Of a stretch of 64,000 bases of DNA, positions 2,990-51,350 are shown in pieces. The DNA lies in contig OX365948.1 of assembly GCA_947247005.1 (NCBI GenBank), forward strand, positions 7,626,001-7,690,000, in the 5' to 3' direction. This DNA is from Spisula solida. Taxonomy: Eukaryota; Mollusca; Bivalvia; Venerida; Mactridae. The translations under genes were made by a program, and so were the position numbers. Position 1 is the first letter of the stretch, and every line of letters begins with the position of its first letter. Below the pieces are notes generated by a model that did no database searches, was not told the DNA's origin, and was given only the letters and a program-made list of their open reading frames with translations.

Positions 2990-5900
2990 ATGAAATACTT
3001 GATTGGTGTAGATGTTGGTACAGGTTCAGTCAGAGCCGCACTGGTTCGTGAGGATGGTAAAATGATTGCTTCAGAGTCTAAATCCATTCAAATATGGAAT
3101 CCAAAGCCAGATTTCTACCAACAGTCTTCAGAAGATATATGGTCAGCTGTTGTGCACACAGTAAAGGTGGCATGTCGTTCCTTTAACTTAATCATGTTTA
3201 CACATATTTTGTACATCCGTCTTGCCAGGTGCATACAGCATGTATACCTGTCAATCCTTAAATGCAAAGTATGCTTTCTGCTGCATTAGCATTTCTATGC
3301 CATTTAATTTTACTTTTAATTGGGTTTTATGCTGTTATTCTTTAGATACAGTACAACATCTCCAGAGTGGCTCTCTGTAGAGCAACATCTTCAATATTCC
3401 CTCAACCGATATTTACTATAAATTTAACCCTGTAGAGCAACAACCTCTAAACAAGTGCCAATATTTGCATCTCCCAAAGGGTGCTGCTATACAGTATCTG
3501 AGAGGTTGTACTGTAAACTCGGCCACATGTTGACCTAACCAGTTCTGCTGTCAAGGATCAATCTGTATTGTGAAAACTAGTTCTAGTTTACTTTTCCACT
3601 AATAACTGACTACGTTTCAACTTGTATAGGATAATATTATATAAGGTAATGTTACAAAAGAACATAACTTGCCCTTTGCCCAACCTGGGAACTGAACCCA
3701 AATCTGATCAGTAATGGTTGACTTTCATGCACTCAACCAACTGTGCTATTCTCATAGCATTAAATTTTGTTTTCTCTCGCCATGTGAGGGATTGTAACTG
3801 TACTAGCTAGACAGGCCTTTAGTAGATGGATAATTTTTGATGTTCCAATATTTCAGACTGTTTGTCATGCTGGTTTTGTGAGTGTTTTATGTTCCAATAT
3901 TTCAGACTGTTTGTCGTGCTGGTTCTGTGAGTGTTTTATGTTCCAATATTTCAGACTGTTTGTCGTGCTGGTTCTGTGCGTGTTGAAGATGTTGGAGGTA
4001 TTGGTTTTGATGCTACATGTTCTCTAGTTATCAGAGATAAGGAGAAAAAAACACTTTCTGTATGTCCAACTGGTTAGTAATACATTCTTCTCTTACTTTT
4101 ATTGTAAAATAGATACATCAAGGGCTTATTCTTAAAAAATGTCTTCTTCCATACAATACTCATAACTGTAAAAAAAATTCACGAGGTCAAGTTTTCTTTA
4201 ATTTGTTGTTTGAAAATAGTTCCCCAGGTTAAATGATCCCAAATTTTAAACTAAAGAGAATAACTATGTTCTCCAAATGTGCAGAAATGCCAGTTCCTTG
4301 AGGAAGGTAAGTTAGTACTGATCAGGATACTGGTAAGATGAATAGGCTGCCTTAAATAACTGAAAAAATTCTTGAGAAAACGACATTTAACCCATTTAAA
4401 CAAACAACTCCTGTTAGTATTATCTATTGTATATCAAAGTATAATGAATGTTACTACAGGAAATCCAGAGTGTGATATAATTATGTGGATGGACCATAGA
4501 GCTACAGAAGAGACAGACCTTATAAATGCCACTAAACATGATGTTCTTAAATATACTGGTGGTACTATATCACTGGAAATGGAACCTCCAAAATTGCTGT
4601 GGTTGAAAAAGGTGAGTAACATCATATTCGCAGAATACTTCTACAAGTTTTTTTCTATACATTCCCAAAGCAAAAGGACCCATTCCAAATAGAGTGAATC
4701 ATCTATTTTTCCCATATGTATGAATATTCATGTTATAAATGCTGTTTGATATGATCATACTTGAAGCTCAACTATCTGTCATTTAATTGTTTATCAACTT
4801 CACATGGGTATTACCGCACTTTACAGACCATACCATGGCTTGGGATACAATATAATAATAAGGTTTAAACATATTTTATTACCCAAACAATGTCATACAA
4901 ATATATCAATAAATACATTTATATACAAGGGTAAAAGGGTCGAGCCACAAGTTCCAAAACTTAGTTACGGCTCTCCCCTTATTGATAATAAAGGATGATT
5001 AAACTTCTTGTCATTAAAAGTTTCCCAATTCACGAGTTGGTCCTTTTCCCAAAATATTCTGGAAACCCCTGTATTATAACAACACAAAAGCACTTACAAA
5101 TATTAGTATTTGCAGGAATGAAAATCTGTAGACATCCATGGTTTTGGGGTCTGACTGGTCATAGTTTATACCAATGGAATTATAAGTTAAAAGTAATCCA
5201 CATTCTTATTCACCAGCATATTCTTTAACTGTGTTATTGGATTGACTTACCTGCACAATTCAGTGCAGGGGAGGTAAATGTATTATGATTGTACTTCTAC
5301 CAATACAAATTACCTCTTACACAAGCTACTGACGACTAATCCACAGGTGGAAGACAGGACACTAGCCATGGAAGAACATTACCTACCCTAGCAGGGAATC
5401 GAGCAATCAATGTTCCAAGTGGGCTACAAAATTAATGTCTTAAAACCTGATTGCATTTCAGAACTTGAAGAATCAGTGTTGGGATAATGCTGGTTATATG
5501 TTTGATCTTTGTGATTTCCTCACCTGGAGAGCTACTGGATCCATGACAAGGTAAATCTACTATAGTATAACTTCAATAATGTGACCACCCTTTGGATCCT
5601 TGATTACAAAGAAAACATTGAAAATGGACATAAAATAGTAATTTTAGCTTACAAAAATTGATTTTAGGTCGATTTTGAAATAAGTTCTTGCAAGTTATGT
5701 TGATTAGTCTCAACATTCCATTCCCTAGGTTATGAGATGTTAACATTAGTTTTATCTGGATATTATTTGTTGCTCAATTGTTTATATCAGGTGTCCTACT
5801 GAGGCATACTGCTCAATCCTGAAAAGGACTCTATTCTACTTCGGATGCCATTAGCACTTCACAAAAACTAGGTTTCAAATGTCATTCTATTGTCAAAATT

Positions 5901-8900
5901 TAGCAAGTTTCAAATGACTATAACTCGGTCATATAACTTTTAATTTCTGCGGAAAAGTTAATTTCCAGATTATGCAATAATTGTTGTATATTTGTCGTCA
6001 CATTTTCAGGTCTTTATGTTCAGTGATTGCCAAATGGACATATACTAAAGATAAACAGTTTGATCCAGAATTTTATAAACTGATTGGTCTTGAAGATTTG
6101 TGCGAAAATAACTTTGAAAAAATCGGTAAGATTTGATATTTCATTTCGGAACTGAAATGATATTGTAATATCCCCGCCTCCTTGATAGCCTAGTGGTTGA
6201 GCGTCCGCTTTGAGTGCGGGAGGTCTCGGGTTGGATCCCTGGCCGCGTCATACCAAAGACAAAATAAAAATGGTACCGGTAATTCCCTTGCTAGAAGCTC
6301 AGCAAGAAAAGGGAATCTGGCTTCTCTTCTCTCATACCCTCTTGGCTATGGATAATATCAGGAATATAACCTAAACTAATATCACCTGCTTGTGGTTGAA
6401 CCATCTCAAAATGTTTCAGTTATGGGAGTTTATCATTAATTGTGTGCAGTAAGGTATCATAACCTCTAATATAACTCTCAAACTACTTCATACGCACCAA
6501 GGTATAGATTTTCAAAAAATATTAACTTTTCATTAGAATTTAGATATTATTGTTAGCTTATTTGATCTGCCCCATCTAATTTGCATTTGATTCGCATCAC
6601 TATAGCCTAGTGGTAGAGCATCTGCTTCGAGTGGGAGAGGTTTTGAGTTTGATCCCAGACTGCAACATTTCAAAGTTGTTAAGAGTTGTAGAGGTATATC
6701 TCTCTTGCTTGGCACTGAAGTGACTTCCTGGTAACTACTGGTTTACCTGGTGTCAGGATAATGATACTGAAGTGACTTCCTGGTAACTTCTGGTTTACTG
6801 AAGTGACTTCCTGGTAACTACTGGTTTACATGGTGTCAGGATAATGACACTGAAGTGATTTCCTGGTAACTTCTGGTTTACATGGTGTCAGGATAATGAC
6901 ACTGAAGTGACTTCCTGGTAACTACTGGTTTACATGGTGTCAGGATAATGATACTGAAGTGATTTCCTGGTAACTTCTGGTTTACCTGGTGTCAGGATAA
7001 TGACACTGAAGTGACTTCCTGGTAACTACTGGTTTACATGGTGTCAGGATAATGATACTGAAGTGACTTCCTGGTAACTACTGGTTTACCTGGTGTCAGG
7101 ATAATGATATTTTGCAGGAAGTGATATTCAACCACAAGGTCAGCAATGTGGAAAGGGACTGACTGATCTAGCTGCTACTGAACTTGGTCTCAAGCCTGGC
7201 ACCCCAGTCTCTGTTGGTATGATTGATGCTCACTGTGCTACTATAGGTTTGTTACCTTCTTCTTCTAGTTGCAGTATTTATTATATACCTAACAATGTAT
7301 TGTAATGAATACAGGCCAAATCACACAGTGCAATACAACGTGACAGATTGCATTTTCTGTATCATGCATGTCTGATGTGTTATATGTCGAACATATGCCA
7401 ACGTGAATGATGTCATGATGTAAATATTTACTTTTTTATAATGGACGTCGCGTTATATGCCGAAAAGATGCTGACGTTTATGACATCAATGTATACACAT
7501 TAAACGAATTCTTGCGCGTAAAAGCGTTGTTTCATTTTTGTACGTATATAAGATAAGGAATATAACTGCAGTTGTATTGATCCGTTAAGCTGTATTACCT
7601 CGTGAGATACGGCATTACACAATCAACTCCAAGGTTATATGGCCCAACAGATCAACACACTGAAGTGGTATTCCCTATATATGGCTCAATATATCAATCT
7701 TTTATTACAAATGCTTTACAAAAGCAAATAGTCATGAAAACAGGTTAAATGTAATATTATGCACCCATCCCAAATTAATTAAAGCAGTAATAATTAAAGA
7801 TCCATGCTTTTAAGCTCGGATTTTCAAAGAAAACATCTACTGACGAGAGGACACAAATCTATCTAGCATTTTATAAGAGTTATTCCCCTTTTCTGACTGA
7901 TTATTTACACAAAAATGTCAATTTCTCAATGACCGTCAATGGTATCCACTTGAAACTCAACATAGTTATTCACCATTACAAGGGAGTCCATTCTGACTAG
8001 GCTGGTAACTGTGACTTATATTTATGAGTTATCTGCCCTTGTTGCTCTTAGAATATTCACTTACAGACGAGCAAGGGTACTATCAAGCACGAGAAAGTTG
8101 AGAGTCCAGCACTCGTAGGCGGTGCTCTTGTTTAGCAGTAGGTTTTTCGCATATTTATATACCCCTGCCATGGAAATAGCTGAGTCATATCATGTTACCC
8201 ATTTCAGTCCTGTCATCATTCAGTTTCCATCAGTAACTGAGAAAGCTTTGGCCAAAGGTCTTCAAATATTATGTGTGGATTTGTCTTGATGTGTAGATGA
8301 CCCATATTGATTTTGAGGCCACTAAGTTCAAGGTCACAGTTACTTCCTTGCCAGGGAGCATTCATATCTATCGGAAATATCTAGTACATTCTCAAGTATA
8401 TTCTGTAAATCACTTAATATTTATTTTTATGATTTTTCCGAAAATTTCAAGATTATTTTTGTCACAAGAATGTCGAATTCGTGACATTGACAATGTTCAA
8501 TTCCCAACATTGTATTGCTAAATTTTCACGAGAATAATGATTTCGCATGTCAACATCCGTGGGAATCTCAGTTTTGTTAAAATGTTGCTACATCCTCTTA
8601 TTCAAGTTGTATGAATTGTGTCCCTTTAACAGAACCAACTTTATAAGAAAAGTAGTCATAAAATTAATTTCACATGTTTTGGAATCATATATTGCAGACA
8701 AATACTTATAATGCTTGTGCATGAATATTTGTTTATCACATTTACAGGTTGTGTTGGGTGTATACCGAAAGATAAAACAGTGAAAGTTCCTCCATTAAAT
8801 CACCGTGTAGCTATGATCAGTGGAACATCAACATGTCATATGCAAGTAAGATATGTAATAGTCACATGTATATCATTGATAATATTGTACATTCTTTTAT

Positions 8901-11900
8901 TGGTATTGTCTGGGGCCTATTTTATTGACAAATACTAGCTAAGATCAGACTGTTCGGTATATTATTCAAATATTGAGAGCATCAAAAGTGAACCCATTCA
9001 TTTTGAATGAGTTAGAAAAGTTCTTTATGATAATTCTAGTTCACTTACTTTGCTTGAATGTACTAGATATCTTAGGTAGTACCAACTATAGTATGAAAAA
9101 GTCAAATCTTAGCTGAGATATGTCTATGAAACAGGCCCCAGATATTTACATATGTAAATTGAGTTTACCAATGAAAGGCAAGAGTCATAGCCAGGCTTGA
9201 ATTGATGCTACATGAACAAGACTTTAAGTTGGTGGTAGATATGGGGGTGCTTCATGATGGTTGAGATTATGAATAACAGAGAAAATACAATAAAATTGTA
9301 GCACTCTGCATCTGATGTTTTGAAGAATATATTATAACAGGGTGATATATGATATTGTAGTGGTGTGTGCTGGGAGGAGTGGGTTTCAAGTTTTCAATGA
9401 AAATGGTGCAATTTCATGCAAAGAAAATTGCATTTTTGAATAAAAAGAACATTATCCAAGCATTTGCCTTTAATTTAATTTTTAACAATATTTACGTTTT
9501 TAGTCCCCTACTGGTTTTTGACTATGGTGACAGAAACATTGAAACTGGCTTAAAACTGGTTGGGACTTCTGTAAATAAATTTATTTTGGCTGTAAAAACA
9601 TCGGAAATATTGCACATGTTTGCATAATCCAATGGATTCACATGGATTCAACAAACAATCAGGCGGAGTGTTCACTACTCTGGTGTTGCATCAATTGTAA
9701 TGACTGCTAATGTGTATAACTATACTGGAAATAACTTTTTAATACTTTCACTTTTACATGTGTGTTGTTAAATGGTTGACAAGTTTTGTTCAATTATTTG
9801 AACGCTTGTTATATTTTCAGATAAGTAATGATGCAATATTTGTACCTGGTGTTTGGGGACCAAACTGGTCAGCCATCGTGCCTGGATACTGGTCAGCTGA
9901 AGGTGGTCAAAGTGCTGCTGGAAAACTGGTGAGATTTCGCAGAGTTCACGAATGGTAGAATGTCGCGAAATTAAGTCACTGCGAAAGTGCTAAAATCATT
10001 AATATGGACATTGCGGGAATCTTAAAAACGTGAACATTTGTAGTCGTGAATATGCCGACTATCAGCAAAATGTGAAAGTTAGTAATCGCAACAGTAAATT
10101 GGTTTACAGCATATGGTAAATTTATTAGTTGACACATGTTATCTTTTTTGTGACAACATTTTACAGCTGATATAGTTGATATGTCAACATTCAATATTGT
10201 ACACATATATATTTTAGATGGATTATGTCGTGGAAACACATGCGGCATATGAGGATGCTGTGACTCAAGCAAAGAAAAGGTTTGTATTTTTCCACATAAT
10301 ATGTTTAATTGTTTGACGATTTAATGTAGTGATAGTTTCATAAATAAGAATCTGGCAATCCTGTCATACTCACACAGTCCAGCTTCGAATCCCTGCAAAA
10401 TATCTTACCTGTTTGAGGCATCTATGTTATGCGCAAGTTTGAACTGTCAGATAATTGATTTCGTCATAATGGGATACTGTATGTATTTGTATTGGGCATC
10501 TAGGAGAAATATTTTGTTATAAAATATTTATTTTTTGAGGAGTTGAATTTTTTTTTCATGGTTGAACCAAATATGAAACAAGTGGTTTTTCCCCAACCAT
10601 GTTTTGTAATTTATGAACCAACAAAATATCATTTTCCCTAACTTTACAAAAGTTTATATCCACCAAAATCAATGATGAATTTACTGTAAATTACTGTAAA
10701 ATCATTCATTATCAATAAATATGACAAGTTTTCAGTGGCTGCAATATTATTTGCTGTCAATTTCAGTTTTTGGGTTTCGGGAAGTTTACTTGTATAATAC
10801 CAACATGTAATGAATCAATTATTATATCTGTTTGATTTTTGAATGATTTCTGATATTTTTTGTGAATTTTGATTTTGCCTTGCGAAATATTCTTTTCTAC
10901 CAAAACCATGAAATTGTGTCCCATTGAAATTAAATGATTTTACAGTATGTTTTATTTCAGAGATATACATGTCACAGATTACCTGTATGAAGTATTACTG
11001 AATGAAACATCTGGTCAAGGTTTGTCCAGTATGGCTGAACTGACGAGAGAGTTCCATTTATGGCCAGATTTCCATGGCAACCGATCACCTCTGGCAGATC
11101 ATACACTGAAGGGCATGGTAATATAGTAAAATAGTAATCACCCAATTGTGGGTATTGTCAAGACTTTTGACCGCAAGGGTGTTTAGAAAGTTGAATCATG
11201 AAATTTAAATAGATACAAAATGTTATTTTAGATCCATACTCAGTATAGAGTCCTGGGTTGGTATTCACAAAGCATCTTAAGGGAAATCTTAGAATTTTCT
11301 TAAAATCTTAAAATTTCCTTAAGTGTCTCAGATGAACAGGAAAATCAAGATTATCAATTTTTTACAAAGTTAGGAAGCATTATGTAAAGAGCTACAATGA
11401 TCACAAAGAAAACATAGGTTATTCTTCGTTTCTTTGGAAATATGTGCAGCTAAATATTTTAACTTAAGTAAAAATATTTAAGATTTCCCTTAAGATGCTT
11501 TGTGAATACCACCCCTGGTGTAACATAAATTATTGGTAGCTTCATTTAATACCAGAAATATGACACAATGGAGGACTCAAAACCTTGAGTTGATATATAC
11601 TGTCAAGAATGAGGTGTATAATAATAAATTATAAAAATATATTATCTAAGTGTTAAGTTATTTTCAGATTAGTGGTCTAACATTGAGATCAGATGTGGTT
11701 GGACTTTCTATTCTCTACCTAGCAACCGTACAAGCATTGGCTGTAAGTTTTGTCCTCGCTTATTCCACTAACCCCTTTCTATTCCTATTAAAGATGAGAT
11801 TTGCAGCTTTTTATGCCAAATATCAAGAGTGATCACCCTTGATGAAGTGTCCACCACTTTGATTACTAATAATTGGATGATCTCCCCCGGTACTCTAATT

Positions 11901-14900
11901 ATTGGAAAACACAGCAGACAGTTCAAATTAGGGCTTGAATTGAGACCTGATGCTTAATCTGTAGAATAATGTGTTATACTAGTAGAAAGTTTTCTGTCAG
12001 TATATATGATGGCCTAACTTGACCTAACCTAACCAGTATGACTATCATTTTGGAAATATCATATAACATAATTATATTACCATGCAGTATTTTAACTTAT
12101 GGAAACTTTGATCGGATTATTTGTTGCCATATGACAAGCTTTAAACGAAGCATGTGTGAATTATGAATTGTCTTATTGTATATATGCATTATTCAGTGAA
12201 TTAATGAAAAAGAATTTTGTTGAATATTTTAAAAATGTAGGTAACCTCTCTAGAGCAGCCCTCCCTTGAGCAACAAGTTACAACCTTTCCTTAGCAGTGT
12301 TACCTTTTTGCACCAGAAGTAACCACTTATTTATTTACCTCCCCATAGCAACAACCGCTGTACAACAACCAAACTTTGTGTTTCCCTAATAGTGTTGCTC
12401 TAGACATGTTGTACTGTACATAGTTGTCACGCTATACATAAAGATATATATACATGTTACAGTACAGTACCCATCATATCCTCAGTGAGATGAGACGATG
12501 TGGACATTTCCCAGATATATTGTATATTTGTGGAGGATTAAGGAAGAATCAACTATACATACAGACTCATGCTGATGCTACAGGTATGAATGTTTTAGAC
12601 CCACCCTGTATCATGGTTGAGTAGTAATTGTTCGACACTTTTGAAATCTTCAAATGAACGTACGTAGTAAAAAATAAAGTCCCATAAAGCAATGAATATT
12701 ACCATAGGTATGTACATTCAATTCTATAGAGTAAATACTTTTCTTTAAATTACAGACATTAGTGAATAATCTTCCCCAAGTACTCTCTAAAATACAGACA
12801 TTAGTGAGTTATCTACCCTAAGTACTCTCTAAAATTACAGACATTAGTGAGTTATCTTCCCTAAGTACTCTCTAAAATTACAGACATTAGTGAGTTATCT
12901 TCCCTAAGTACTCTCTAAAATTACAGAAATTAGTGAGTTATCTTCCCTAAGTACTCTCTAAAATTACAGACATTAGTGAGTTATCTTCCCTAAGTACTCT
13001 CTAAAATTACAGACATTTGTGAGTTATCTTCCCTTAGTACTCTTAGTCACTCTAAAACTACATTGGTCATATTGTGCAAAGTACTCTTACATCTTAAAAC
13101 AGGGATATCTCTGTGAGAAATAACGATAAATTCAGAGGATCTCAACTAGTTAGGACCGATGTACAAATTAAGTCTACTACAGGCTGTATCTTACAAGGGA
13201 GGCACATTGAATAAAATGAAAACAAATAGCGAAAAAGTTTGTAGACTTGTTGTACTAATATGTTCAACATTTTATGCTTTAGGTCTTCCCGTGGTAGTGC
13301 CTGATGAGAAGGAATCCGTGTTGTTAGGGGCCGCAATATTAGGGGCCGCTGCTGCTGGCTTACATCCTTCTATACAGGTATATGAACAACTTTCTATTTA
13401 TACATACATGTCTACTTCATTTACTTATTATAAGATTTCTGCCAAAAACTATTTTGAAATAAATATAGATTTCTACCAAAATTTTGTTCATATTTATGGG
13501 TGATTATATACATCACAGTATGTTGACTCACTGAACCCCCAAACCGGAAGTCGCTGATAACTAGGCGTTCAGTTTCATTTTGGAAAGCTGTCAACAGTAA
13601 GTATTTAATGTTTTATCAGACTTTTTGAATTGAATATACTTGTTATATATATATTTTTAGCGTGAAATAAAAGTATCTTCATTAGAATGTCCCATACTAG
13701 GTATTAGCATTTAAAATGAAAACGTATTTTCTCAAAATAGACAGCTGCTTAAAGCGAAAGATGATTCAATCACGATAAAATGTCCGTTATTTTAGAAATG
13801 CTAAGGGAATTCGAGTACTAATCTCTTCTAGGTGTTTCATTATCAATCTATACGTATGAGTTTATACGTGCATTGATGCATTTCTCCCCTGAATCGTTTC
13901 AGTAGTGTCTAATCCAGTATGCATTCGAATCATGCACTGGACGCCTATTCGGAAAACGCGAAAATCCGTCTGTCCCACTAGTCGCAGTACCACTGTATGC
14001 CTATTCAATAAATAGTGAAATATCCAATTACGAAATGCTCGAGTAATAATCTCTTCTAGGTGTTTCAATATCAATCTATACGTATGAGTGTATATGTGCA
14101 ATGATGCATTTCTGTCCTGAATCGTTGCAATAGTGTTTAATCCAGTGTGCATTCGAATCATGCCTATTCGAAAAACGCGAAAATCCATCTGTCCCACTAG
14201 TCGCAGTACCACTGTATGCCTATTCAATAAGATATGCAAATATCCAACAAGTCAAATAGTTTTCCTCGGCCAGACCAGTATTTACAACAGTCGTGTAGTG
14301 ATAAAATTCAATATTTTCAAGAGCGCGTAGCGCGAGTGAAAATATTAAAATTTTATCACTACAAGATGAGATATTTAAACCATATTCAATCAAAACAAAC
14401 AAATATTCTATTTATTTAATGCTTTTATGGTGTCAAAACTGGTACTATTTATGTCAAATTACCACTGTGGTTAGGCTACGTATGAATATGTTATTCCATT
14501 CATATTTTTCACTTCAAAATCCGCCATCTTGGATTATGGTGAATAGGTGAAAACGACTTTTTTGAGAATTTTGCATTAAATCATACACCAACTTGTAGGA
14601 AATGGTCTAACTAAGAATAAAAACCCCCACATGACATGTTTCCTTTCAGTAATAAAAACGTTACAGACATTTTAGTGTTGAGATTTTGGTAAATTAAAGT
14701 AGTCCCTGTGAGGGGGCGGAGCTTATATCAGTCACATTGTAGGTGATAACCAGTGACTGATATAGGTTTTATTTCACTGATAGAACTCCATATCTCATCA
14801 GTTAGCATTAAATAAATATCAGTTATGCATTGTATCTTTATTTTCGACAAGAAAACAGTAAGTTTTTGGTCATTTTCCTCACCAATGACCCTGGCATATC

Positions 14901-17900
14901 CGTTTTGCACCTATCCATATTTTGTTCCAGGGGGCGGCGGGCATCAACAATAGATGACCTATATGGATTGTGCGGTTGGTAGGTCAAGGGACAGTATCAA
15001 TGTGACCTTTAACATGAATGAATAGGTCCAATGGTTTCCGTTCAATAACTTAACAAGGTCATTTAGTCAAAGTCGTCATTCAACCTTAAACATTCCTGAC
15101 TATCGGGATGTCACGGGGACTTACGTGTACAATGTATTACAATTTTATAAACATCTCTTTATTCTATTAAGTCTTTATATTTTACTGGACTGTCACATAA
15201 TTACATGCAGTTAACAAACACAGTTTTTACAGGGACCGTGTCTATACGTATATTATACTAAACTTTAATGTCAAAGTTATCCAAGGTCATTACTCAATGC
15301 ATATGTCCCCGATTCTTCGGGTCTTTTACTCCAGAAAACATTTTCTTTGAATAAAATTGCCGCGGTAGCATTGATACTGTTCCATGACTACTTTCTACGG
15401 TTAACACATAACAAGGTCAGAGCATTAAATGCAAGGTTGAAAATACGTTTGCATAGGCGTACAGTTTTTTTTTGCGACTAAGCGTACAGTCCAGATTTTA
15501 CAAAATGCGACTAGTGGGTCAGTCATGTTTCGACTAGTCGTACAGTGTAATCGGCATACATGTCCCAGAAAACACATTTTCTTCAAAACGTATCCGTTAA
15601 GATAGAGCAATGTTTGTGTGTATCGATGTGTTATACATTCATTTACAATGCAGAAAAGGTTGCAAGAATTTGGAAACGCTAAATATACTATTTTTCAAAG
15701 AATTTGTAGGTTCATTACACGCTCAAACAAATATCTAATCGTTATTTAACTTGAAAATAAAGTTTATAAGGGCTTTTATCAGGAATGTTTGGTATCTACG
15801 TAAACAGTATGCTATGGACTACATTTTAACTAAAACAGTGCACTTACTTTATGCGATACTAAGGAATAAACTAATAAAATCCAAACTATCCGAGACGGTA
15901 AACACGATCATTTTATTTTCTGAACGCCTAGTTATCAGCGACTTCCGGTTTGGGGGTACAGTGAGTCAACATACTGTGTACATGGGGAATTGAATACTGT
16001 AGTTATTGAATTTAATTGACACCTAGAATATGTAACAATGCATTTTCTATATTTTCTGTAACCCACCTGTTCATGACACTACATAATTGCATACATGTTA
16101 CCAAAATTCCAAAACTGAATGTCTGCTAAAATCTATGAGTTTACAGTTTTACATTCTGTGTTTGACTTGAATGTTTATAGGCATGTATGGAGCACATGTG
16201 TGGAAAAGGGGAAGTAACTTTGCCAAGCCGTGATGACAAATTGTAAGTTTCCATATTTTAGTGTGTCATCGTCCCTCAGTATCATATCCCGTTTCTACTA
16301 CTATTGATTTTCAGCGTAGCCTGAGCAAATGTGGGGTCCAACGATAACATATAAATGATTTGTTAAAAATTTATCTATTTATAGTGTTTCACTTAAATTT
16401 TCCACTTGTAAAAAAGTATCATGCTGGTATGTTATATACTACAGGTATGTTATATACTACAGGTTATATACTACAGGTATCATGCTGGTATGTTATATAC
16501 TACAGGTATGTTATATACTACAGGTATATTATATACTACAGGTATGTTATATACTACAGGTATCATGCTAGTATGTTATATACTACAGGTATGTTATACA
16601 CTACAGGTATCATGCTGGTATGTTATTAACTACAGGTATCATGCTAGTATGTTATATACTACAGGTATGTTATATACTACAGGTATCATGCTGGTATGTC
16701 ATATACTACAGATATCATGCTGGTATGTTATATACTACAGGTATCATGCTGGTATGTCATATACTACAGGTATCATGCTGGTATGTTATATACTACAGGT
16801 ATCATGCTGGTATGTCATATACTACAGGTATCATGCTGGTATGTTATATACTACAGGTATCATGCTGGTATGTCATATACTACAGGTATCATGCTGGTAT
16901 GTTATATACTACAGGTATCATGCTGGTATGTTATATACTACAGGTATCATGCTGGTATGTCATATACTACAGGTATCATGCTGGTATGTCATATACTACA
17001 GGTATCATGCTGGTATGTTATATACTACAGGTATCATGCTGGTATGTTATATACTACAGGTATCATGCTGGTATGTTACATACTACAGGTATCATGCTGG
17101 TATGTTATATACTACAGGTAGCATGCTGGTATGTTATATACTACAGGTATCATGCTGGTATGTTACATACTACAGGTATGTTATATACTACAGGTATGTT
17201 ATATACTACAGGTATCATGCTGGTATGTTATATACTACAGATATCATGCTGGTATGTTATATACTACAGATATCATGCTAGTATGTCATATACTACAGGT
17301 ATCATGCTGGTATGTCATATACTACAGGTATCATGCTGGTATGTTATATACTACAGGTATCATGCTGGTATGTTATAAACTACAGGTATCATGCTGGTAT
17401 GTTACATACTACAGGTATCATGCTGGTATGTTATATACTACAGGTATCATGCTGGTATGTTATACACTACAGGTATCATGCTGGTATGTTATACACTACA
17501 GATATCATGCTGGTATGTTATATACTACAGGTATCATGCTGGTATGTTATACACTACAGGTAGCATGCTGGTATGTTATACACTACAGATATCATGCTGG
17601 TATGTTATACACTACAGGTATCATGCTGGTATGTTATACACTACAGGTATCATGCTGGTATGTTATATACTACAGGTATGTTATATACTACATGTATGTT
17701 ATATACTACAGGTATGTTATACACTACAGGTATCATGCTGGTATGTTATACACTACAGGTATGATGCTGGTATGTTATATACTACAGGTATGTTATATAC
17801 TACATGTATGTTATATACTACAGGTATGTTATACACTACAGGTATCATGCTAGTATGTTATACACTACAGGTATCATGCTGGTATGTTATATACTACAGG

Positions 17901-19163
17901 TGTCATGCTGGTATGTTATATACTACAGGTATCATGCTGGTATATTATACACTACATGTATCATGCTGGTATGTTATATACTACAGGTATCATGCTGGTA
18001 TGTTATATTCTACAGGTATCATGCTGGTATGTTATACACTACAGGTATCATGCTGGTATGTTATAAACTACAGGTATCATGCTGGTATGTTATATACTAC
18101 AGGTATGTTATATACTACAGGTATGTTATATACTACAGGTATCATGCTGGTATGTTATATACTACAGGTATCATGCTGGTATGTTATATACTACAGATAT
18201 CATGCTGGTATGTTATATACTACAGGTATCATGCTGGTATGTTATATACTACAGGTATCATGCTGGTATATTATACACTACATGTATCATGCTGGTATGT
18301 TATATACTACAGGTATCATGCTGGTATGTTATATACTACAGGTATCATGCTGGTATGTTATACACTACAGGTATCATGCTGGTATGTTATATACTACAGG
18401 TATCATGCTGGTATGTTATATAATACAGGTATGTTATATACTACATGTATCATGCTGGTATGTTATATACTACAGATATCATGCTGGTATGTCATATACT
18501 ACAGGTATCATGCTGGTATGTTATATACTACAGGTATCATGCTGGTATGTCATATACTACAGGTAGCATGCTGGTATGTTATACACTACAGGTATCATGC
18601 TGGTATGTTATATACTACAGGTATCATGCTGGTATGTTACATACTACAGGTATCATGCTGGTATGTCATATACTACAGGTAGCATGCTGGTATGTTACAT
18701 ACTACAGGTATCATGCTGGTATGTCATATACTACAGGTATCATGCTGGTATGTTATATACTACAGGTATCATGCTGGTATGTTATATACTACAGGTATCA
18801 TGCTGGTATGTCATATACTACAGGTATCATGCTGGTATGTTATATACTACAGGTATCATGCTGGTATATTATACACTACAGATATCATGCTGGTATGTTA
18901 TATACTACAGGTATCTTGCTGGTATGTTATACACTACAGGTAGCATGCTGGTATGTTATATACTACAGGTATCATGCTGGTATGTTATATACTACAGGTA
19001 TCATGCTGGTATGTTATATACTACAGGTACCATGCTGGTATGTTATATACTACAGGTACCATGCTGGTATGTTATATACTACAGGTATCATGGGAAGAAA
19101 TATGAAGTGTTTCTGGAGATGTACAAGGACCAGAGGAAATATAAACAGATGATGAATAGTTAA
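2990..19163 (+). CDS. FGGY: FGGY carbohydrate kinase (D-ribulose kinase family), 15 coding exons
   Basis: Family role: ATP-dependent phosphorylation of a sugar such as D-ribulose in the cytosol. Coding exons: 2990-3166, 3955-4072, 4460-4611, 5462-5550, 6010-6125, 7118-7246, 8748-8845, 9821-9928, 10218-10279, 10961-11117, 11668-11742, 12463-12583, 13283-13377, 16181-16242, 19085-19163. They total 1638 nt, with every junction GT-AG and in phase, giving 545 residues; the human protein is about 550. Visible family motifs: GVDVGTGS (6-13, N-terminal ATPase-fold loop), WMDHRA (108-113), GMIDAH (251-256; D254 is the likely catalytic base by analogy), FVPGVWGP in exon 8, FHGNRSP (387-393) and CGGL (450-453). 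The ATG is chosen because it sits just before the conserved N-terminal strand and follows an acceptor at 2979. Exon 1 could instead end at 3160 (donor GTAAAG), dropping two residues in frame. The acceptors of exons 2 and 15 lie in tandem repeats. The ortholog call is strong; exact splice choices are inference. Confidence 0.92.
3650..3775 (-). repeat. tRNA-derived SINE-like unit in FGGY intron 1
   Basis: On the minus strand the sequence reads 'tagcacagttggttgagtgc' (box A-like), then 'gggttcagttccc' (box B-like) about 50 bases later. This is the layout of a tRNA-derived SINE head. The match is approximate, and no clear tail or target duplication was established. Confidence 0.45.
3841..3978 (+). 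repeat. Three tandem copies of the FGGY exon 2 acceptor and exon start
   Basis: Three 49-bp units carry 'ttccaatatttcag' followed by 'actgtttgtc.tgctggtt'. Acceptors fall at 3856, 3905 and 3954. Only the third runs on into the conserved exon 2 reading frame (..[10 protein letters not shown]). Units 1 and 2 have a strong donor-like GTGAGT 21 nt after the acceptor; in unit 3 this is GTGCGT and is read through as coding. Each of the first two units therefore outlines a 21-nt in-frame pseudo-exon. Confidence 0.85.
6178..6370 (+). repeat. tRNA-derived SINE-like unit in FGGY intron 5
   Basis: The head 'gatagcctagtggttgagcg' resembles tRNA box A with its D-arm, and 'ctcgggttggatccctgg' resembles box B. 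A non-tRNA body follows ('ggtaattcccttgctagaag'). A related head lies at 6600. It sits between FGGY exons 5 and 6 and has no coding content. Confidence 0.55.
6595..6715 (+). repeat. tRNA-derived SINE-like unit, second copy in FGGY intron 5
   Basis: The head 'tatagcctagtggtagagca' and 'ttttgagtttgatccc' repeat the tRNA-like arrangement of the copy at 6178. The downstream part differs. The right edge touches the tandem array that starts at 6716. Confidence 0.5.
6716..7108. repeat. 52-bp minisatellite upstream of FGGY exon 6
   Basis: About 7-8 units of 52 bp, each containing 'gaagtgacttcctggtaact' and 'ggtgtcaggataatga'. There is one shorter unit near 6780. The array ends 9 bp before the exon 6 acceptor at 7117, so it fills the position where the branch point and polypyrimidine tract of that intron should be. 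Confidence 0.9.
11252..11518. mobile_element. Foldback/MITE-like inverted-repeat element in FGGY intron 10
   Basis: The left arm 'ggtattcacaaagcatctta' recurs as its reverse complement 'taagatgctttgtgaatacc' at the right end, with further matching 'agggaaatctta' sequence inside. The element is about 267 bp, AT-rich and non-coding. Related palindromic sequence (hairpin with 'ggatcacgaaa') occurs at 63391-63512. Confidence 0.75.
12748..13045. repeat. 43-bp tandem repeat in FGGY intron 12
   Basis: Six to seven units with the core 'attacagacattagtgagtt' and 'cttccctaagtactctctaa'. The array lies between exon 12 (ends 12583) and exon 13 (starts 13283). Each unit contains 'attacag', but no FGGY exon uses it. 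Confidence 0.9.
13805..14245. repeat. Internal direct duplication within the 2.47-kb transposon
   Basis: Two adjacent copies of about 210-225 bp share 'aatctcttctaggtgtttca', 'tcaatctatacgtatgagt' and 'gtcccactagtcgcagtacc'. They differ by small indels (for example the extra 'actgga' stretch in copy 1). They are not coding; the short minus-strand ORF here only follows the repeat. Confidence 0.8.
14295..14362. repeat. Palindrome inside the 2.47-kb transposon
   Basis: The arms 'gtagtgataaaatt' and 'aattttatcactac' flank an inner stem ('aatatttt' / 'aaaatatt') and the core 'gcgcgtagcgcg'. It would fold into a long hairpin. It could be a nested MITE or a structural end of an older element. Confidence 0.8.
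16416..19084 (+). repeat. 29/18-bp minisatellite that multiplies the FGGY exon 15 splice acceptor
   Basis: A 2669-bp array of close to a hundred units, in two length classes. The 29-bp unit is GTATCATGCTG followed by GTATGTTATATACTACAG. The 18-bp unit is the second part alone. The array ends exactly at the acceptor of the last FGGY exon (..tactacag | GTATCATGGG). The first 8 nt of that exon are the first 8 nt of the unit, so each 29-bp unit holds an acceptor (tactacag|G) and, 11 nt later, a donor-like CTG|GTATGT. Because 29 is not a multiple of 3 and the unit has no stops, all three plus frames stay open and create long spurious ORFs. Variants (ttacatac, gtcatata, gtagcatg) are scattered throughout. 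Confidence 0.95.
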
Positions 19164-20682: not shown

Positions 20683-21257
20683 TACACGAAGACTACCTCT
20701 AGGTTAGAGATCGGTTCATCAGTCTGTAAAGACTACCTCTTGGTTAGAGATCAGTTCATCAGTCTGTAAAGACTACCTCTAGGTTAGAGATTGGTTCATC
20801 AGTCTGTAAAGACTACCTCTAGGTTAGAGATCGGTTCATCAGTCTGTAAAGACTACCTCTTGGTTAGAGATCAGTTCATCAGTCTGTAAAGACTACCTCT
20901 AGGTTAGAGATCGGTTCATCAGTCTGTAAAGACTACCTCTTGGTTAGAGATCAGTTCATCAGTCTGTAAAGACCACCTCTAGGTTAGAGATTGGTTCATC
21001 AGTCTGTAAAGACTACCTCTAGGTTAGAGATTGGTTCATCAGTCTGTAAAGACTACCTCTAGGTTAGAGATTGGTTCATCAGTCTGTAAAGACCACCTCT
21101 AGGTTAGAGATTGGTTCATCAGTCTGTAAAGACCACCTCTAGGTTAGAGATTGGTTCATCAGTCTGTAAAGACTACCTCTAGGTTAGAGATCGGTTCATC
21201 AGTCTGTAAAGACTACCTCTTGGTTAGAGATCGGTTCATCAGTCTGTAAAGACCACC
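20683..21257. repeat. 40-bp tandem repeat downstream of FGGY
   Basis: About 14 units of 40 bp with the core 'gttcatcagtctgtaaagac' and 'tacctctaggttagagat'. Diagnostic variants (aggtt/tggtt, tcgg/tcag/ttgg, gacta/gacca) recur in patterns suggesting duplication of multi-unit blocks. The array is intergenic and not coding. Confidence 0.92.
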
Positions 21258-21917
21258 TATTGGAACAGTATGGTCTTAGTTGACAGTTGCTCTCTCATAA
21301 CAGGAAGTCATTGAAATTATTCTGATGGGAGAGAAAATTAGTGGTTTTTACAGACTGGTTTTGTAATAGTGGTACAGCTTTATGACAGGTTTGACTATAT
21401 ATGCTTACCTCACATTTGTCGAAAAGGATATGCTCAATGGCTTACACATTTTACTTTTGTTTTAAAATTATTATAGATTTATTGATTGATTTATATTGAT
21501 TATGTTAAAGTGACTATAAATTGAATTGTAATAAAAAACTATTACATACAAAATGTGTCTCGTATTTTATAGGCAGATCCAGTATACGGCATTTTTTTAT
21601 GAGAGATTTTAACTGAAGCCTTTACATACTGATATGGTATCGCATCAGGTAATGCTCTGCCCTAGTTGTGTGAGGAGCATGTATTACAATTCTTCAGTAT
21701 ATTAACCAGATCTTCTTACTATCTTTCAGCATACTTTAACAACTGATTTCTTGTCTTCAAACACAAACCTTCAAAAGTGATAATGCATGATTTAATTGTA
21801 GACATTGATATATTCCGCTCACTAATCTTGCAATATCAGGGCAGCCACAGGGAAAATTACTCCCTGCAGGGAAAAATCAGGGAATTTCTAAATTGGGCAA
21901 AAATCAGGAAATTTTAC

Positions 21918-22577
21918 AAGAGGGCCCTGTCGTAATAGTTCATGATGACTTACATGGTGACGTAAGAAATCATTTACAACTTCACAGAATCAAGTTAATG
22001 CGGCCTCAGTTGCATGTACAAGGTTATCATATAGTCCTAACCAGTGACCTTATTATTTACATCAGATAACCTATATTGACAGACAAGACCATAATTGTGA
22101 TCTCTAGTGCCTATATTATTATATAGTGCGTTTTGTTTTGACCTATTTTTGACCTGCACTTGACCTAGATTTCATAGAGACAACCATTCTGACCAAGTTT
22201 CATGAAGATTGGGCCATAACTGTGTTCACAGGCTCTTTCTAAGATTTGACCTAGTTTTTACCCCACATGACTTAAGTTTCTACTTCGACCTAGATTTCAT
22301 AAAGACAAGCATTCTGACCAAGTTCCATGAAAATTGGGCCAAAATTGTATCCTCTACTGTGTTTACAAGCTTTTTCTAATATTTGACCTAGTGACCTCGT
22401 TTTTGACCCCACATGATCCAGTTTGAACTAGGCCTAGATTTCATAGAGACAAACATTCTGACCAAGTTTAATGAAGATTGGGTCATAACTGTGACCTCTA
22501 GTGTGTTCACAAGCAATTGTGGATGGAAGAGTGATCACAACAGCTCACCCAGTCGCTATGTGGCAGGTGAGCTAAAA
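21918..22577 (+). repeat. 'Gaccaagtttcat' family repeat, partial copy
   Basis: Begins near 'aagagggccctgtcg' and ends 'tggcaggtgagctaaaaa'. Inside are about three degenerate units of roughly 150 bp with 'catagagacaaacattctga', 'ccaagtttcatgaagattgg' and 'gacctagttttt'. It is related to the arrays at 39276, 42222 and 56118. This architecture, core tandem units between fixed ends, suggests a non-autonomous element. Confidence 0.7.
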
Positions 22578-28441: not shown

Positions 28442-28494
28442 TCAATCAGAGTCTGTCCTCAGTGTGAAGGAAGAGGCATGACTTTCTGAAGAGA
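28442..28494 (-). CDS. RANBP3: Candidate alternative last coding exon of RANBP3
   Basis: On the minus strand a good acceptor (pyrimidine-rich tract ending 'tgtatattacag') precedes 51 nt in the phase required by the donor at 30044 (GAAG|gttagt). This would add the residues VSSESHASSFTLRTDSD and a TGA stop, giving a 502-residue protein in place of 486. The acidic, Ser-rich composition suits a RANBP3 C-terminus, but the region is poorly conserved, so homology cannot decide. If it is unused, RANBP3 ends at the TAG at 30040-30042. Confidence 0.45.
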
Positions 28495-28796
28495 CTGTAA
28501 TATACAAATAGAAACAATAGTTAAAAGTCTGTCTAAATCACACCCATAAACAGAGCAACATTTTGCTTATTGCCAACATTAACTCTTGGTACATGTATTT
28601 GGTTAACGTTGATTGTGTAATGAATATTGAATAGACATTTGTCTAAAAGACACACACTAGTAGAGTTGTACTTTGTTGTCATCATAAAATCACAGCGATT
28701 GGTTAACAATTGTGTAATGAACAGACATCCATCCCTCATAGTGACAGATTCCTAGAGAACTACTCAGTATTGATGCCTGACTGACAGATGCCTAGA

Positions 28797-29150
28797 CAAG
28801 AGTGCCCTTTCAAGAGGGCCCAAAGGGCCCTAGGTCTCTCACCTGTCGTAGTAGCGCATGCAAGCTCTGTGATATGACCGGATAAAATCCAGTAAAAAAC
28901 AACAAAGTCACAGAGCGGACGACTTGGATGCCTATATAACCTTTGACCTCTAAGTTTGACCTTTGAGCTAGGGACATGGATCTTGTGCATGACACACTGT
29001 CTTGATGTGGTGTACATTTGTACCAAGCGATTTTAAATCCAGTAAGAAACGACAAAGTTACAGAGCTGACACCATTTTGCTAACAGACAAACAGACGACC
29101 GACACGGTGACTCCAGTATACCCCCTTCAAACTTTTGTTTGCGGGGGTAT
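28797..29150. repeat. Interspersed repeat fragment with 'agggcccaaagggccct' end
   Basis: Starts with 'caagagggcccaaagggccc' and 'taggtctctcacctgtcgta', as in the element at 39276. It ends in an inverted pair 'tatacccccttcaaac' / 'gtttgcgggggtata'. Two internal phrases 'aaatccagtaagaaacgaca' and 'aaaatccagtaaaaaacaac' show degenerate duplication. Confidence 0.6.
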
Positions 29151-29823
29151 AATTATACTAAGAATCACTGATAAATCGAGCACACTTGATCTTACTTGCC
29201 CAATACAAATTTTATTTTATTATGAAACATGTTTTGTGACAACCCAAATCAACAATGTGTGTCAATTTCTCCTCACTATGCTAGTTGCTATCCTACAGTC
29301 ACATTCACTATGTTTGGAATTATGCCAAAACTTACAACAGAATATGAGAAACAATATCTTAGTGAAACACATTTGCACAAATATTATCTACTTACGCAAT
29401 ATTTACAGAAAACTTTATTTAATTTAATACGCTAGTGTAAATGCTTTGATGAAACAGCAGACAGATGCTTACATATGTAAAATGAAAATTCTGTTAACCA
29501 ATGAAATTATTTATTAGGTTTTAAAAACAAGGAAATATTTCACATGTATGCATGATCAATGGTTTCCCTTGATAACAAAAGCATTTGACAAACAAATCAG
29601 TGGAACATTTTCTACACTGGCGTCTGGCCAGTTCCTTGACAACCAGGTTTTTTAATACAAAGTCGTACTAATTTTATGTCAAAGTTCCATAATGAAAATT
29701 GGTCAGCCAATTATGCCATCCACAGAAAATAAGTTGTTATAATTATTATTAAAGTGTGCACATTTCTTAACGAAATATTGTTTCTGTTTGAAGAACTGGT
29801 AAAGAATGATTTTATGACTAGAC

Positions 29824-30088
29824 TGATTCACGAACCTTCTGTTTCTGGATCTACTACACTACAATGATTCACTAACCTTCTGTTTCTGGATCTACTACAC
29901 TACTATCTGATTCACTAACCTTCTGTTTCTGGATCTACTACACTACTATCTGATTCACTAACCTTCTGTTTCTGGATCTACTACACTACTATGATTCACT
30001 AACCTTCTGTTTCTGGATCTACTACACTACTATGATTCACTAACCTTCTGTTTCTGGATCTACTACACTACTGTCTGATTCCTCACGT
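29824..30088 (-). repeat. 40-43-bp tandem repeat carrying the RANBP3 last-exon donor/stop
   Basis: Six units, each reading on the minus strand 'gtagtagatccagaaacaga' then 'aggttagtgaatca'. The unit nearest the gene is coding (..SSVVDPETEG, TAG). In the other copies the same sequence lies downstream. Each unit has a GAAG|GTTAGT donor-like site; some also have 'gaatcag' acceptors. Confidence 0.9.
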
Positions 30089-33000
30089 TTATAGCTAGCT
30101 TGAGCTTCATCATCTGATTTCCTGTAATATACATTAGAAAAATTGTTTAACACTTGACTTGAGTATCAACGCTTTCTGAATGATTTCCTGTAATATACAT
30201 TAGAATCTTTTTTATTCAACACTGGAAGGAGTGTCAATGTTTTCTGAATGATTTCGTGGTTGAACAACATACGTCAAATAGGGCTTACACAACATAATGA
30301 TACAGTTAAGTTATCCTAGATTTCATGGACTTAATGTTAATCGGTGGTAATTATATAAATGGTTTGGCAGACAAGTCATTTAAAGTTGTCTAAACAGAAT
30401 GTTGAAGCAAAGTTAATTTTGTAAATACTAAATGAATACAAGGATTCTTACTTTGTTTTTTTTACCACAAATTCCTCTGTGGGAGATTCCGGTTCAGCTT
30501 TACGTTTCTCTGCCACTTTTACACCACTATCCTTCAATTTCTCCTCTTGGACACGCTGTTGTTGTACCCGCCAATCTAACGCCCGTAACAAATTTTCTGA
30601 ATCTTTTGGATTTGTCTAAAAGAAAACATAGTATGCTTTCAAATTCACTTTTTTTGTTCACTATTATACGCAGGAGTTTCTCGCTAATTCATAAATCCAC
30701 TTTTTATGACTATGATGAAGAATAACGTCCATTTATGAAATTGGATTACTTCCCCCCGATACTCATTATTGGAAAGTAATTTGTGATGAATGGCTTGAAA
30801 TGACATACCTATGGAGTAAAGGGTAGTCCATTAAAATTGCTAGAATGTTTTTAAAACCCCAATCTCAATTTGACTCATATTTATTATAAATATATTTCTG
30901 TCACTTACTATAATAAGAAAGACTTTGATATGGTCACCATCTGTACCAGTTATTCTCACACTTTTTTGACTTGCACGTTCTACTGTCATACCAGGCCAGA
31001 TCTTTGTATTCAATATTAGTCGTAAACAACCTTGCGTCCTCATTACTGAAATAGAAGCAATCAATCTGTCAGATATGTATGTGATTGTTCCAGCATTTCA
31101 GCTACTGAAAAGGGCCATAACTCTGGCAAAAATCATCCAACCTAGAATTCCAAACGACATGTACAACTAGGCTTGGTACTTAGTATTCATGTTCAAGTTT
31201 CATTGAAATCTGACCTATGGTAAAGGAGAACAAGCGCAGACAAACTGTTTTGTGACATCTATCCATCCAGCACAAAATCAAAACGTCTCGCCCACTCTAT
31301 GTGGGAGACCTAATAACACTAGAATTCCTGCAAGAACATCATCAAGCATAATTTGAACTAAACAGCTGTTTGAAAGATTCGAAAGTTCAATGGTTGAAAT
31401 AACCTGTAAGTGGGAAAAATAATATGCACCTGCTAAGACAAATATCTCTATTATATCATATCAAGTTAACATACCTAATCTTGACTGGAACGTCTGAGAT
31501 GACTCGCATCTCATATCATTTAATCTCAATAAACCTCGACCACGTTCCACCCAATTCTGTGTATCACCATCAAACACAAATAATTTACCATTTGCCTAAA
31601 AAACAACACAAACATTATGCATGGAAAAATGGGAAACAAGTTTTTAATACATGTATCAAACAATTTATCATAAAAGGTCATTCCTACAACTATCCATTTA
31701 ACAAAAATACCATAAAGTTCCTACAACTATCCATTTAACAAAAATACCATAAAGTTCCTACAACTATCCATTTAACAAAAATACCATAAAGTTCCTACAA
31801 CTATCCATTTAACAAAAATACCATAAAGCTGTCATTTAAGCACAACTACTGCTCAAGGTTATTCCCAGATAACTGTCTTGCCTTTCTCTCAAACGGATTT
31901 TTTTAAAATATCCCTTATTGTTCAAGGGCTTAATGGGTGCTTGTATTATTTTGGTCATGTACTTCTGTCAACAAGGGACTTAAGCAGGCCGACATCAGGA
32001 TAATTTAAACGTTGCCCCATTCGGAAACTCAGACTCTAAAATTCACCTCCCAATTTGCTTCAACATTTGAGGACAAGAACTTCACCTCACCTGTAAAACA
32101 TTTGATTCATTTTCCTCGCCTGTAACCACTTCTACTTCTTGTAGTTCTGTCTTTTTCCCGTGAGCAGCCTGGTACTCACGCGCTGACTCTTCTAACGTTT
32201 TACCTGCTTCTGTAACCACAAATACAAATGTTTGTTTATCCTATCCTACTACAGCCCATATCATTTATGGTTGGGTATGAAAGTAGGATTTTTTTAAAAA
32301 GTTTTTTTACAAGCTACAGAATCAAAATACTAATTGACTTTCCCTAATTTTGTCCCCCACCTCAATTCCCTAATTTTGTCCCCCCCCCCCCATAAAAAGA
32401 TTTCAGGACTGAAAACCCTTCGGTCTATTCATTCATGTTAATGATCACAGTGACCTGCTGACTTCGAATCAATAGGGTCATCAAAGGTTGCTGACTAACA
32501 TCCATGCAAAGTTTGAGGATCCTAAGGCGGGCCAAGTACTCTGGACAGAAACTGTTTGGTCTACTGACAGGCAGACACAGGCCGATATGTGGAAAGCAAT
32601 TTACCCCTCATCAAAGATTGGGGGCATAATTAATTTATAATCACTTTATAGAACTGTCCAATACCTGCATTGTTTGCAGCCTGATCAAATTGATCTGTTG
32701 AATCAGGGGAGGCTACTCCATTATCCTCAGATTCTTTGTTTTCTTCATCTTTATTGAATTGCACACGTTCAGCCAGATTTTCTCCGAAGACAAAACCTGG
32801 TTTACTTACTACACCCTTAGGTGAATTGTGAACACCCTGAAAATCCAAAAGAACTCTGTGAAAAAGTAATACAATAAAACCTTACAATTTATAAACAACC
32901 TAATATTGGACATAAGCAAAGACCTGTCTATCTGGTGCAGTTAATCTCTAGCAAGTGACTATCAATGAGATCTAGATTTAATTCTACTGTGACATTGACT

Positions 33001-49850: not shown

Positions 49851-51350
49851 TTAGGCATTATATGTAAATTTACGTGGCAGTGATAAATGTATAAAATTGC
49901 ACACATCTTGCATGTATTCTTGGCACATTTTCAGATTAAACTGTACTATGGTGTCCATGCTAAATAAGCTCAGGAGAAAATCCTCTCCGTATAATTGCGA
50001 TAGGTGGATACTGAATGCACGAGAGTACTTCTGTTCTACATTTTTAATAAAGTTTATACGTGTTTGTTTCGGTACAGGGTGTTGACACTCAGCGATCACA
50101 TGTCTATATAGATCTAAAGTTTGAGTTGAACATAATTTACAACATTGGTCAACTGTTCTGTTGTAGGCACATGTTAACACCCGCGCTGTCGTCGTTGCGT
50201 GTATAATTTGGTTTCGGTTGGTTGCTGATTTCCAGATCGGAGATGGAGTTATTTCGCTTTGAGAAGCTAGAAGTCTAGTGAAGTCTGGATCGTATAATGT
50301 TCTTTCAGTCAAAGCATTATCGTGGTAATTGTTGATTTGTGTATGAATAGTTCGAGCCCACATAGATTTTGCTGGGAATTCACAATTTTCCAGGTATTTA
50401 TGCAAGTGATGAGTGAGTGAATACTTCTGCAGTATTCTGTAGATATCCGGATTGAATCCAGTTTGGTTTCTGTATCCCCGTATGGCGAATAGTTGTAGGC
50501 GATAATCAAATATCTTTCTCGAAAGAAGATGTGTTGGCATTGTACACAGTTTGTAAAGAAATGTTAATTTCCTTAGGTCAATTTGGGCGATAATGGGTCT
50601 CCATCCGAGAATACTTAGTGCATTGTCAGTTCTAGTTCGTGTGGGAAGGTGTTGTATACTTTTTGCACAAAGACGGATAAATCGTTCTGCGTGTTGTATA
50701 TCTGATATTGTCATGGTGTTCCAGAGTTCAGCACCGTATAGTGCGATTGGCACTGACACCCTTTTGACGATTGTGCCTAAGGTTAGAGGGTGGATATCAC
50801 CTAGATTGTTTTCGATTGTAAGTAATGAAAATAGAGACGCTCTTGCTTTTTTAATTCTTGCAGTGATGGCATGAGTGCATTTCATTGAGTGGTGAAGTTC
50901 GATACCAACATGAGTTGCTGATTCACTACATGTCAGTTGTTTGTCGCCAATACGCACAGATGGTGTATGGGATATGTTTCCACCGAATACAACCAATTTA
51001 CATTTACTAGCATTTAGTTCATATTCCCATTGGTTAGCATAGTTGGTAACTATATCTATTTGATGTTGTAGCGAGGTCAAATTTGGTGACATCAATGTTA
51101 AGTCATCAGCAAGAGTAGGGTTGCCAGAACGTATAGATCCTATATGCGCACCGTGTTGTGACTCTTCCAGATCACATAACAGTTTATCTATGAAGAGAAG
51201 ATAGAGCCAGGTTGAAAGTACGCCACCTTGACGTACACCTTGAAGAACAGGAAAACTTGTTGACGTCACTCCGTTAACAAGGACAGCACTTTTGATGTCA
51301 CTGTAGCAATTTATTAAAGTTCTTAGTATTTTGCCTTTTATTCCAGAGTG
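49851..51350 (-). pseudogene. 5'-truncated LINE reverse transcriptase
   Basis: An uninterrupted 472-codon minus-strand frame (51269-49851) covers the RT palm and C-terminal part of a non-LTR retrotransposon. GVRQGGVLSTWLYLLFIDKL and LADDLTLM (in place of the usual YADD/FADD) are followed by KLVVFGGN and a C-terminal zinc-binding-like CKLC..HVIAEC motif. Homologous coding sequence continues upstream to about 51350 and then stops (TAA), so fingers and endonuclease are missing. 3' sequence extends to about 49400. The open frame suggests a young insertion, apparently into the gypsy element that surrounds it. Confidence 0.85.

Follow-up and report, generated by a model that had tools for sequence, protein, structure and literature searches.

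A stretch of 64,000 nucleotides (nt) of genomic DNA from the clam Spisula solida (contig OX365948.1, positions 7,626,001 to 7,690,000; here called the window) contains a gene for an FGGY carbohydrate kinase, the last intron of which, intron 14, harbors a large array of short tandem repeats (positions 16416 to 19084, plus strand) ending directly at the predicted acceptor of the last exon. Quite probably, and as the best explanation available, this array is a 2.67-kb minisatellite that copied the intron/exon boundary by slippage or unequal exchange and that is predicted to be spliced out as a whole together with intron 14. Repeats of this kind have been described in amphioxus as mirage minisatellites, and the array is best read as a molluscan member of this class, and a very long one.

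The FGGY gene (2990 to 19163, plus strand) was defined by homology. Its exons were placed between 2980 and 19163 by protein-to-DNA alignment and joined at GT/AG, which yielded 15 predicted exons specifying 545 amino acids (aa), with all joins in frame and no internal stop. The best named matches of a fragment protein of this gene are from Mercenaria (73%), Ruditapes (72%), and Mactra (71%). Exon 14 (16181 to 16242, plus strand) ends with AAATT|gtaagt in phase 2 and is followed by intron 14 (16243 to 19084, plus strand; 2,842 nt), 94% of which is occupied by the array. A non-repeat stretch of the intron upstream of the array (16385 to 16415, plus strand) contains a pyrimidine patch, TTTTCC, and is possibly the ancestral branch-point region. 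Exon 15 (19085 to 19163, plus strand), the predicted last exon, was assigned by homology and reading frame; its first bases are GTATCATGGGAAGAAA and it codes for (L) and 25 residues.

An earlier note on this DNA had described 29-bp units with an acceptor, the first 8 nt of the following exon, and a donor-like GTATGT, beside 18-bp units lacking the 11 nt in between, and had counted close to a hundred acceptors. This description was borne out by a parse into two modules which, with mismatches and small insertions/deletions allowed, covered all 2,669 bases. Module A, GTATCATGCTG, consists of 11 bp and is present 81 times; module B, GTATGTTATATACTACAG, occurs 99 times, 98 times with 18 bp and once shortened to 14 bp. 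They are arranged as 81 AB units of 29 bp (11+18) and 18 extra B modules without A, 17 of them with the full 18 bp and one being the 14-bp copy. The order AA never occurs. Exon 15 starts with GTATCATGGG, and the first 8 nt are common to module A, so that a 29-bp unit corresponds to 8 exon nucleotides, CTG, and 18 intron nucleotides including the acceptor. In 81 of the 99 units, the first 8 bases of exon 15 are present, with some substitutions. All 99 B modules start with GT, 94 of them with GTATGT, and 94 end with CAG. The CAG of the final B module (19082 to 19084) is the predicted true acceptor, the other 93 being located upstream. Among the 18 junctions between two B modules, 14 read CAG|GTATGT, one CAG|GTATAT, and one CAG|GTTATA; two are without AG. 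A search of the window for the 18-mer, allowing up to three mismatches, returned 100 matches where 0.15 would be expected. Of these, 98 are the full-length copies, one is the 14-bp copy in an overlapping reading, and the last, at 33402 with three mismatches, is the only one beyond the array. The 99 units comprise 28 distinct variants in irregular order, and exact internal repeats reach at most 161 bp.

Sequence comparisons support a direction of copying from exon 15 into the array and not the reverse. In 13 aligned relatives, drawn from the 120 FGGY matches listed and including three from one species, Mya, exon 15 starts with Tyr or Phe in all cases, followed by His in nine and Tyr in four. 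With Tyr/Phe-His/Tyr in the relatives, TATCAT appears to be old coding sequence, copies of which are carried by the array. The array would have arisen at short direct repeats, through slippage or unequal exchange between them. It has the form h(Yh)n, h being GTATCATG, and an array at a donor of the RANBP3 gene in the same window, described below, has the same form with h being GAATCA. Such a trace is left by duplication at short direct repeats. Module A is located between two GGTAT direct repeats, and a slippage deletion removing exactly the 11 bp between them would produce the 18-bp class, which therefore requires no splicing explanation. The 18-bp class was not counted in favor of an origin driven by splicing: the GGTAT repeats account for the loss of A, and no unit that had lost B (the GT..AG part) was seen. 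The column pattern of mutations in the array was also set aside as a sign of selection, because unit variants are passed on by duplication. Most likely, the array is neutral.

Splice sites were scored with weight matrices built from the sites of FGGY and RANBP3 themselves. In leave-one-out scoring, the exon 15 acceptor ranked sixth of 28. It scored 9.9 compared to a mean of 9.3 for the array acceptors (n = 94, the true one included), and in FGGY introns 1 to 13 only 9 of 563 other AG sites reached its score. Array donors had a mean of 9.6 (n = 99), comparable to the higher-scoring ones among the 26 true donors (best 10.5), and the 14 copies of CAG|GTATGT scored 11.2. The array decoys are good by consensus, and with a copied exon start and acceptors and donors scoring like real sites, the proposal that the array represents an amplified intron/exon boundary held up.

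While the 93 upstream acceptors would act as decoys, the last one would win by exon definition, since only there the purine-rich exon start GGGAAGAAA follows, and no donor. A purine-rich start of this kind has the composition typical of splicing enhancers. Purines make up 0.68 of the 60 nt that follow the true site, versus 0.50 or less for 91 of the 93 decoys; for the two nearest decoys, from which 60 nt extend into exon 15, the values are 0.48 and 0.55. Of nine purine-rich hexamers tried, seven have a single occurrence each in exon 15 and none in the array, and the remaining two are absent from both. Within 616 nt after the true acceptor no GTRAGT donor was detected. In contrast, each internal acceptor has a GT site 0 or 11 nt downstream (GTATGT in 94 of 99), and a decoy could therefore begin only an exon of 0 or 11 nt or a long retained tail. 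Several points weigh against the interpretation of a minisatellite spliced out whole. Array and true acceptors score alike, so strength does not explain the choice, and RNA folding does not favor the true site either. The link from purine-rich starts to enhancers is drawn from general background, and the nine hexamers were picked post hoc, after exon 15 had been seen. Correct splicing of intron 14 is itself a prediction from the sequence of one haplotype. Leaky use of near copies is possible.

The earlier note had also suggested that, with all three plus frames open, upstream acceptors could add a Tyr/Cys-rich segment before the conserved C-terminus. The openness of the frames holds only roughly, as the consensus unit is free of stops whereas the array as sequenced contains 14 (3, 6, and 5 in the three frames); the open frame running into exon 15 exists, its start being at 18567 rather than 18576. 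Exon 14 was joined in silico to all 94 array acceptors in turn. Of the 93 upstream ones, 79 led to a stop inside the array, 9 reached exon 15 out of frame, and five retained the native C-terminus, which the true site makes six, an outcome unlike that of a maintained coding repeat. A useful added segment was thus not borne out. Isoforms with 29n Tyr/Cys-rich residues preceding the native C-terminus, or replacing it, could draw on 93 upstream acceptors with consensus-level scores, and exon starts at 18650, 18737, 18824, 18911, and 18998 preserve the native end while adding 145, 116, 87, 58, and 29 aa, respectively. Nevertheless, such isoforms appear unlikely. Of the 120 FGGY matches listed, none of which is named from Spisula solida, 118 are free of inserted residues around the junction of exons 14 and 15, and the remaining two contain one or two. 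The array peptide words tried are absent from all 240 proteins fetched, and 198 codons of the open frame, used as a protein query, gave no match at an E value of 0.001 among proteins of about 109 to 346 aa. A function of the array as a reservoir of coding repeats is not supported. A more far-reaching version appears quite improbable: a hypervariable array in which allele length alters the use of upstream acceptors, 11-nt microexons, or AG|GT ratchet points, resulting in a fast-evolving and individually variable FGGY C-terminus, with mirages as a general source of exons and introns in bivalves.

Other explanations concern the removal of intron 14 or the array itself. That the copy number is an assembly artefact is conceivable since long tandem arrays are difficult to assemble, but improbable: the window contains no N, the 28 irregularly ordered variants among 99 units and a longest exact repeat of 161 bp do not point to it, and the other boundary duplications in the window are short, with 2 to 6 copies. 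Alternatively, the array RNA could fold on itself, thereby hiding the decoys and moving the branch-point region upstream of the array close to the true acceptor. Indeed, 300 nt of the array fold with -112.7 kcal/mol compared to -93.0 (standard deviation 4.6) for dinucleotide shuffles. However, 72 of 200 arrays built from repeated shuffled units fold equally well or better, and the true CAG is no more accessible than the decoys: its unpaired probability is 0.15 at a pairing span of 200, where 53 of 93 decoys exceed it, and 0.03 at a span of 600, where 69 of 93 do. Selective hiding of decoys by RNA structure was thus not supported, and the folding explanation as such is very improbable. Finally, intron 14 could be removed in hops by recursive splicing, the junctions between B modules acting mostly as zero-length exons (AG|GT) and the 29-bp units offering microexons (AG|11 nt|GT). 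AG is present next to GT at 16 of the 18 B-B junctions, and the array donors, with a mean of 9.6 and 11.2 for the 14 copies of CAG|GTATGT, compare well with the best true donor (10.5). Against this, the intron is not long, just 2.8 kb, the junctions are not preceded by marked pyrimidine tracts, and neighboring sites are 18 to 29 nt apart, which is too short for an intron. There is hardly any likelihood that splicing proceeds in this way.

The boundary of exon 15 is not the only one duplicated in the window. For each exon boundary, 35 nt around it were searched for in the adjoining intron, 100 resampled introns per boundary serving as the null. Among the 28 FGGY boundaries, the exon 15 acceptor scored 23 versus a null maximum of 15.5 and the exon 2 acceptor 35 versus 12, corresponding to 23 and 35 nt across the respective boundary that recur upstream; the other 26 showed no copy above the resampled introns. 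The second mirage, at the exon 2 acceptor (3836 to 3984, plus strand), consists of three 49-bp units containing the acceptor and about 30 exon nucleotides, with copied exon starts at 3857 and 3906 and the true one at 3955. Donor-like GTGAGTG is found at 3878 and 3927, where the true exon has GTGCGTG instead. The first copy (3857 to 3877, plus strand) could serve as a microexon of 21 nt that keeps the frame, with GTGAGTG as its donor and 77 nt of intron before the true acceptor.

RANBP3 is encoded on the opposite strand (28442 to 44416), and its top match is from Mactra (84%). Exons 2 to 13 as placed form one open frame to the stop; exon 1 (44416 to 44358) does not join exon 2 in frame, and one or more exons upstream of exon 2 are therefore unplaced. 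The exon 6 acceptor as placed (CAAG) scored -8.35, far below all others, with the join being in frame. In exon 5, a 21-bp in-frame duplication (34413 to 34457, minus strand) specifies STVNPAS twice, opposite a gap in the aligned Mactra and Mercenaria proteins. The scan of 24 RANBP3 boundaries gave 35 versus a null maximum of 11.5 for the exon 12 donor and 22 versus 10.5 for the exon 12 acceptor. The donors of exons 4 and 5 were marginal among the 24 tested (12.5 each, null maxima of 12.0 and 11.0) and were dropped. The third mirage, on the exon 12 donor side (29822 to 30081, minus strand), comprises six copies, the true one included, of 41 to 43 bp, each with the final 28 bases of the exon plus its donor. 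Exon-like ends are at 30045 (true), 30004, 29963, 29920, 29877, and 29836, and the last copy has GTTCGTG. Splicing from the donors downstream would introduce an in-frame TAG, with loss of the 17 conserved C-terminal residues. At the exon 12 acceptor, a fourth, short duplication (30108 to 30204, minus strand) covers the acceptor and the first 7 exon nt, TAATGTATATTACAG|GAAATCA; one clear extra copy lies upstream, with its exon start at 30187 and the true one at 30121. The exon residues ESDSSVVDPETE are identical in Mactra and are joined there to VSSESHASSFTLRTDSD, which is found in the window as the last RANBP3 exon, exons 12 and 13 joining in frame. By this comparison, the exon 12 residues appear to be old, like Tyr/Phe-His/Tyr of FGGY.

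According to a rough estimate based on 16 hand-listed repeat units, 1.4 boundary-spanning repeats are expected in the window under random placement compared to three (P 0.17) or four (P 0.06) observed, the fourth having been missed by the repeat finder and spotted by eye; a clear excess of arrays at splice boundaries was therefore not detected. Other minisatellites are present in or near FGGY. A 52-bp minisatellite in intron 5 (6714 to 7107, plus strand) ends 10 nt short of the intron end, and its unit contains GAAGTGAcTTC, which shares GAAGTGA with the exon 6 start, GAAGTGAtaTTC. As a copy of the exon 6 boundary it is weak, the acceptor probe scoring 9 versus a chance maximum of 11. Intron 12 contains a 43-bp minisatellite (12747 to 13043, plus strand) with acceptor-like TTACAG, ACATTA, and donor-like GTGAGT and no predicted exon adjoining. 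Downstream of FGGY, a 40-bp minisatellite is present in 14 copies (20689 to 21258).

The remainder of the window contains further repeats. Retroelement remains were detected at 49854 to 51356 (minus strand; reverse transcriptase domain PF00078) and at 51676 to 53059 (plus strand; RNase H-like and integrase zinc-binding domains). The frames at 62706 to 63176 and 46422 to 46751 had no Pfam match. Recurrent repeats of about 125 to 145 bp and multiples thereof, with a related TGACCTAG..TTTGACCCC core, are located at 22158 to 22514, 39459 to 40314, 42285 to 43419, and 56178 to 56756.

The Spisula arrays were compared to known systems. Mirage minisatellites are reported for the amphioxus globin genes BflGb6 and BflGb9, Adh3, and troponin C (PMC3087553, PMC3902484). 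Data on Adh3, together with reverse transcription polymerase chain reaction (RT-PCR), suggest that regular splicing is undisturbed, cryptic use being possible, and mirages were proposed as a source of new introns (PMC3087553). No aberrant mRNAs are attributed to the Adh and troponin C mirages, and PGBD5 repeats were likened to mirages (PMC3902484). In both animals, tandem repeats extend across an intron-exon boundary, include an exonic part, contain AG/GT in many units, and occur on acceptor as well as donor sides. The 29-bp unit combines an intron end with part of an exon, and many but not all units keep AG/GT (94 of 99 CAG, 94 of 99 GTATGT). The boundaries concerned are the acceptors of FGGY exons 2 and 15 and RANBP3 exon 12 and the donor of RANBP3 exon 12. 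Unit lengths of 29, 49, 41 to 43, and 66 bp are within the 10 to 160 bp of amphioxus (10 to 72 bp for Adh3, about 150 to 160 bp for the globins; PMC3087553). The Spisula arrays differ by the bivalve host and by 99 copies at one acceptor versus 6 and 3 units in two globin haplotypes; moreover, the main array has a two-module 11+18 unit and is known here from genomic sequence. Among the literature matches listed, judged by title, abstract start, and passages, boundary repeats were found only in amphioxus, and judged by title and abstract start none concerned such repeats in bivalves or other molluscs, clams and oysters being covered. As far as these matches show, the mirage form would occur here in a new animal group.

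Other systems share single features with the main array. The units of the intronic variable number tandem repeat (VNTR) of human ABCA7 reportedly differ from those in Spisula in not being copies of an acceptor and an exon start. This VNTR is, like the array, an intronic tandem repeat tied to splicing (PMC5954066). CeRep25B of C. elegans, a minisatellite linked to multiple alternative splicing, also consists of short intronic tandem repeats, but is defined by regulatory motifs and not by splice-boundary copying (PMC4039745). Recursive splice sites, or ratchet points, have the juxtaposition of acceptor and donor in common with the B-B junctions, which in contrast lie in no long intron and are packed 18 to 29 nt apart (PMC8605326). 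In the Rogers model, introns are gained by tandem duplication of AGGT proto-splice sites (named in PMC3087553; PMC4974935, PMC2891723). The Spisula units likewise carry AG|GT, so a copy could turn into a new exon or intron; unlike in the model, the copies are predicted to remain within an existing intron.

The true site stands out neither by its consensus strength nor by predicted folding, and the FGGY array therefore offers a natural test of how the spliceosome selects one acceptor among 94 similar ones. Boundary-copying minisatellites are, moreover, seen here outside lancelets, at four boundaries spread over two genes of a single bivalve window, and the idea that boundary duplications feed the gain of introns and exons thus becomes testable in a second animal group.

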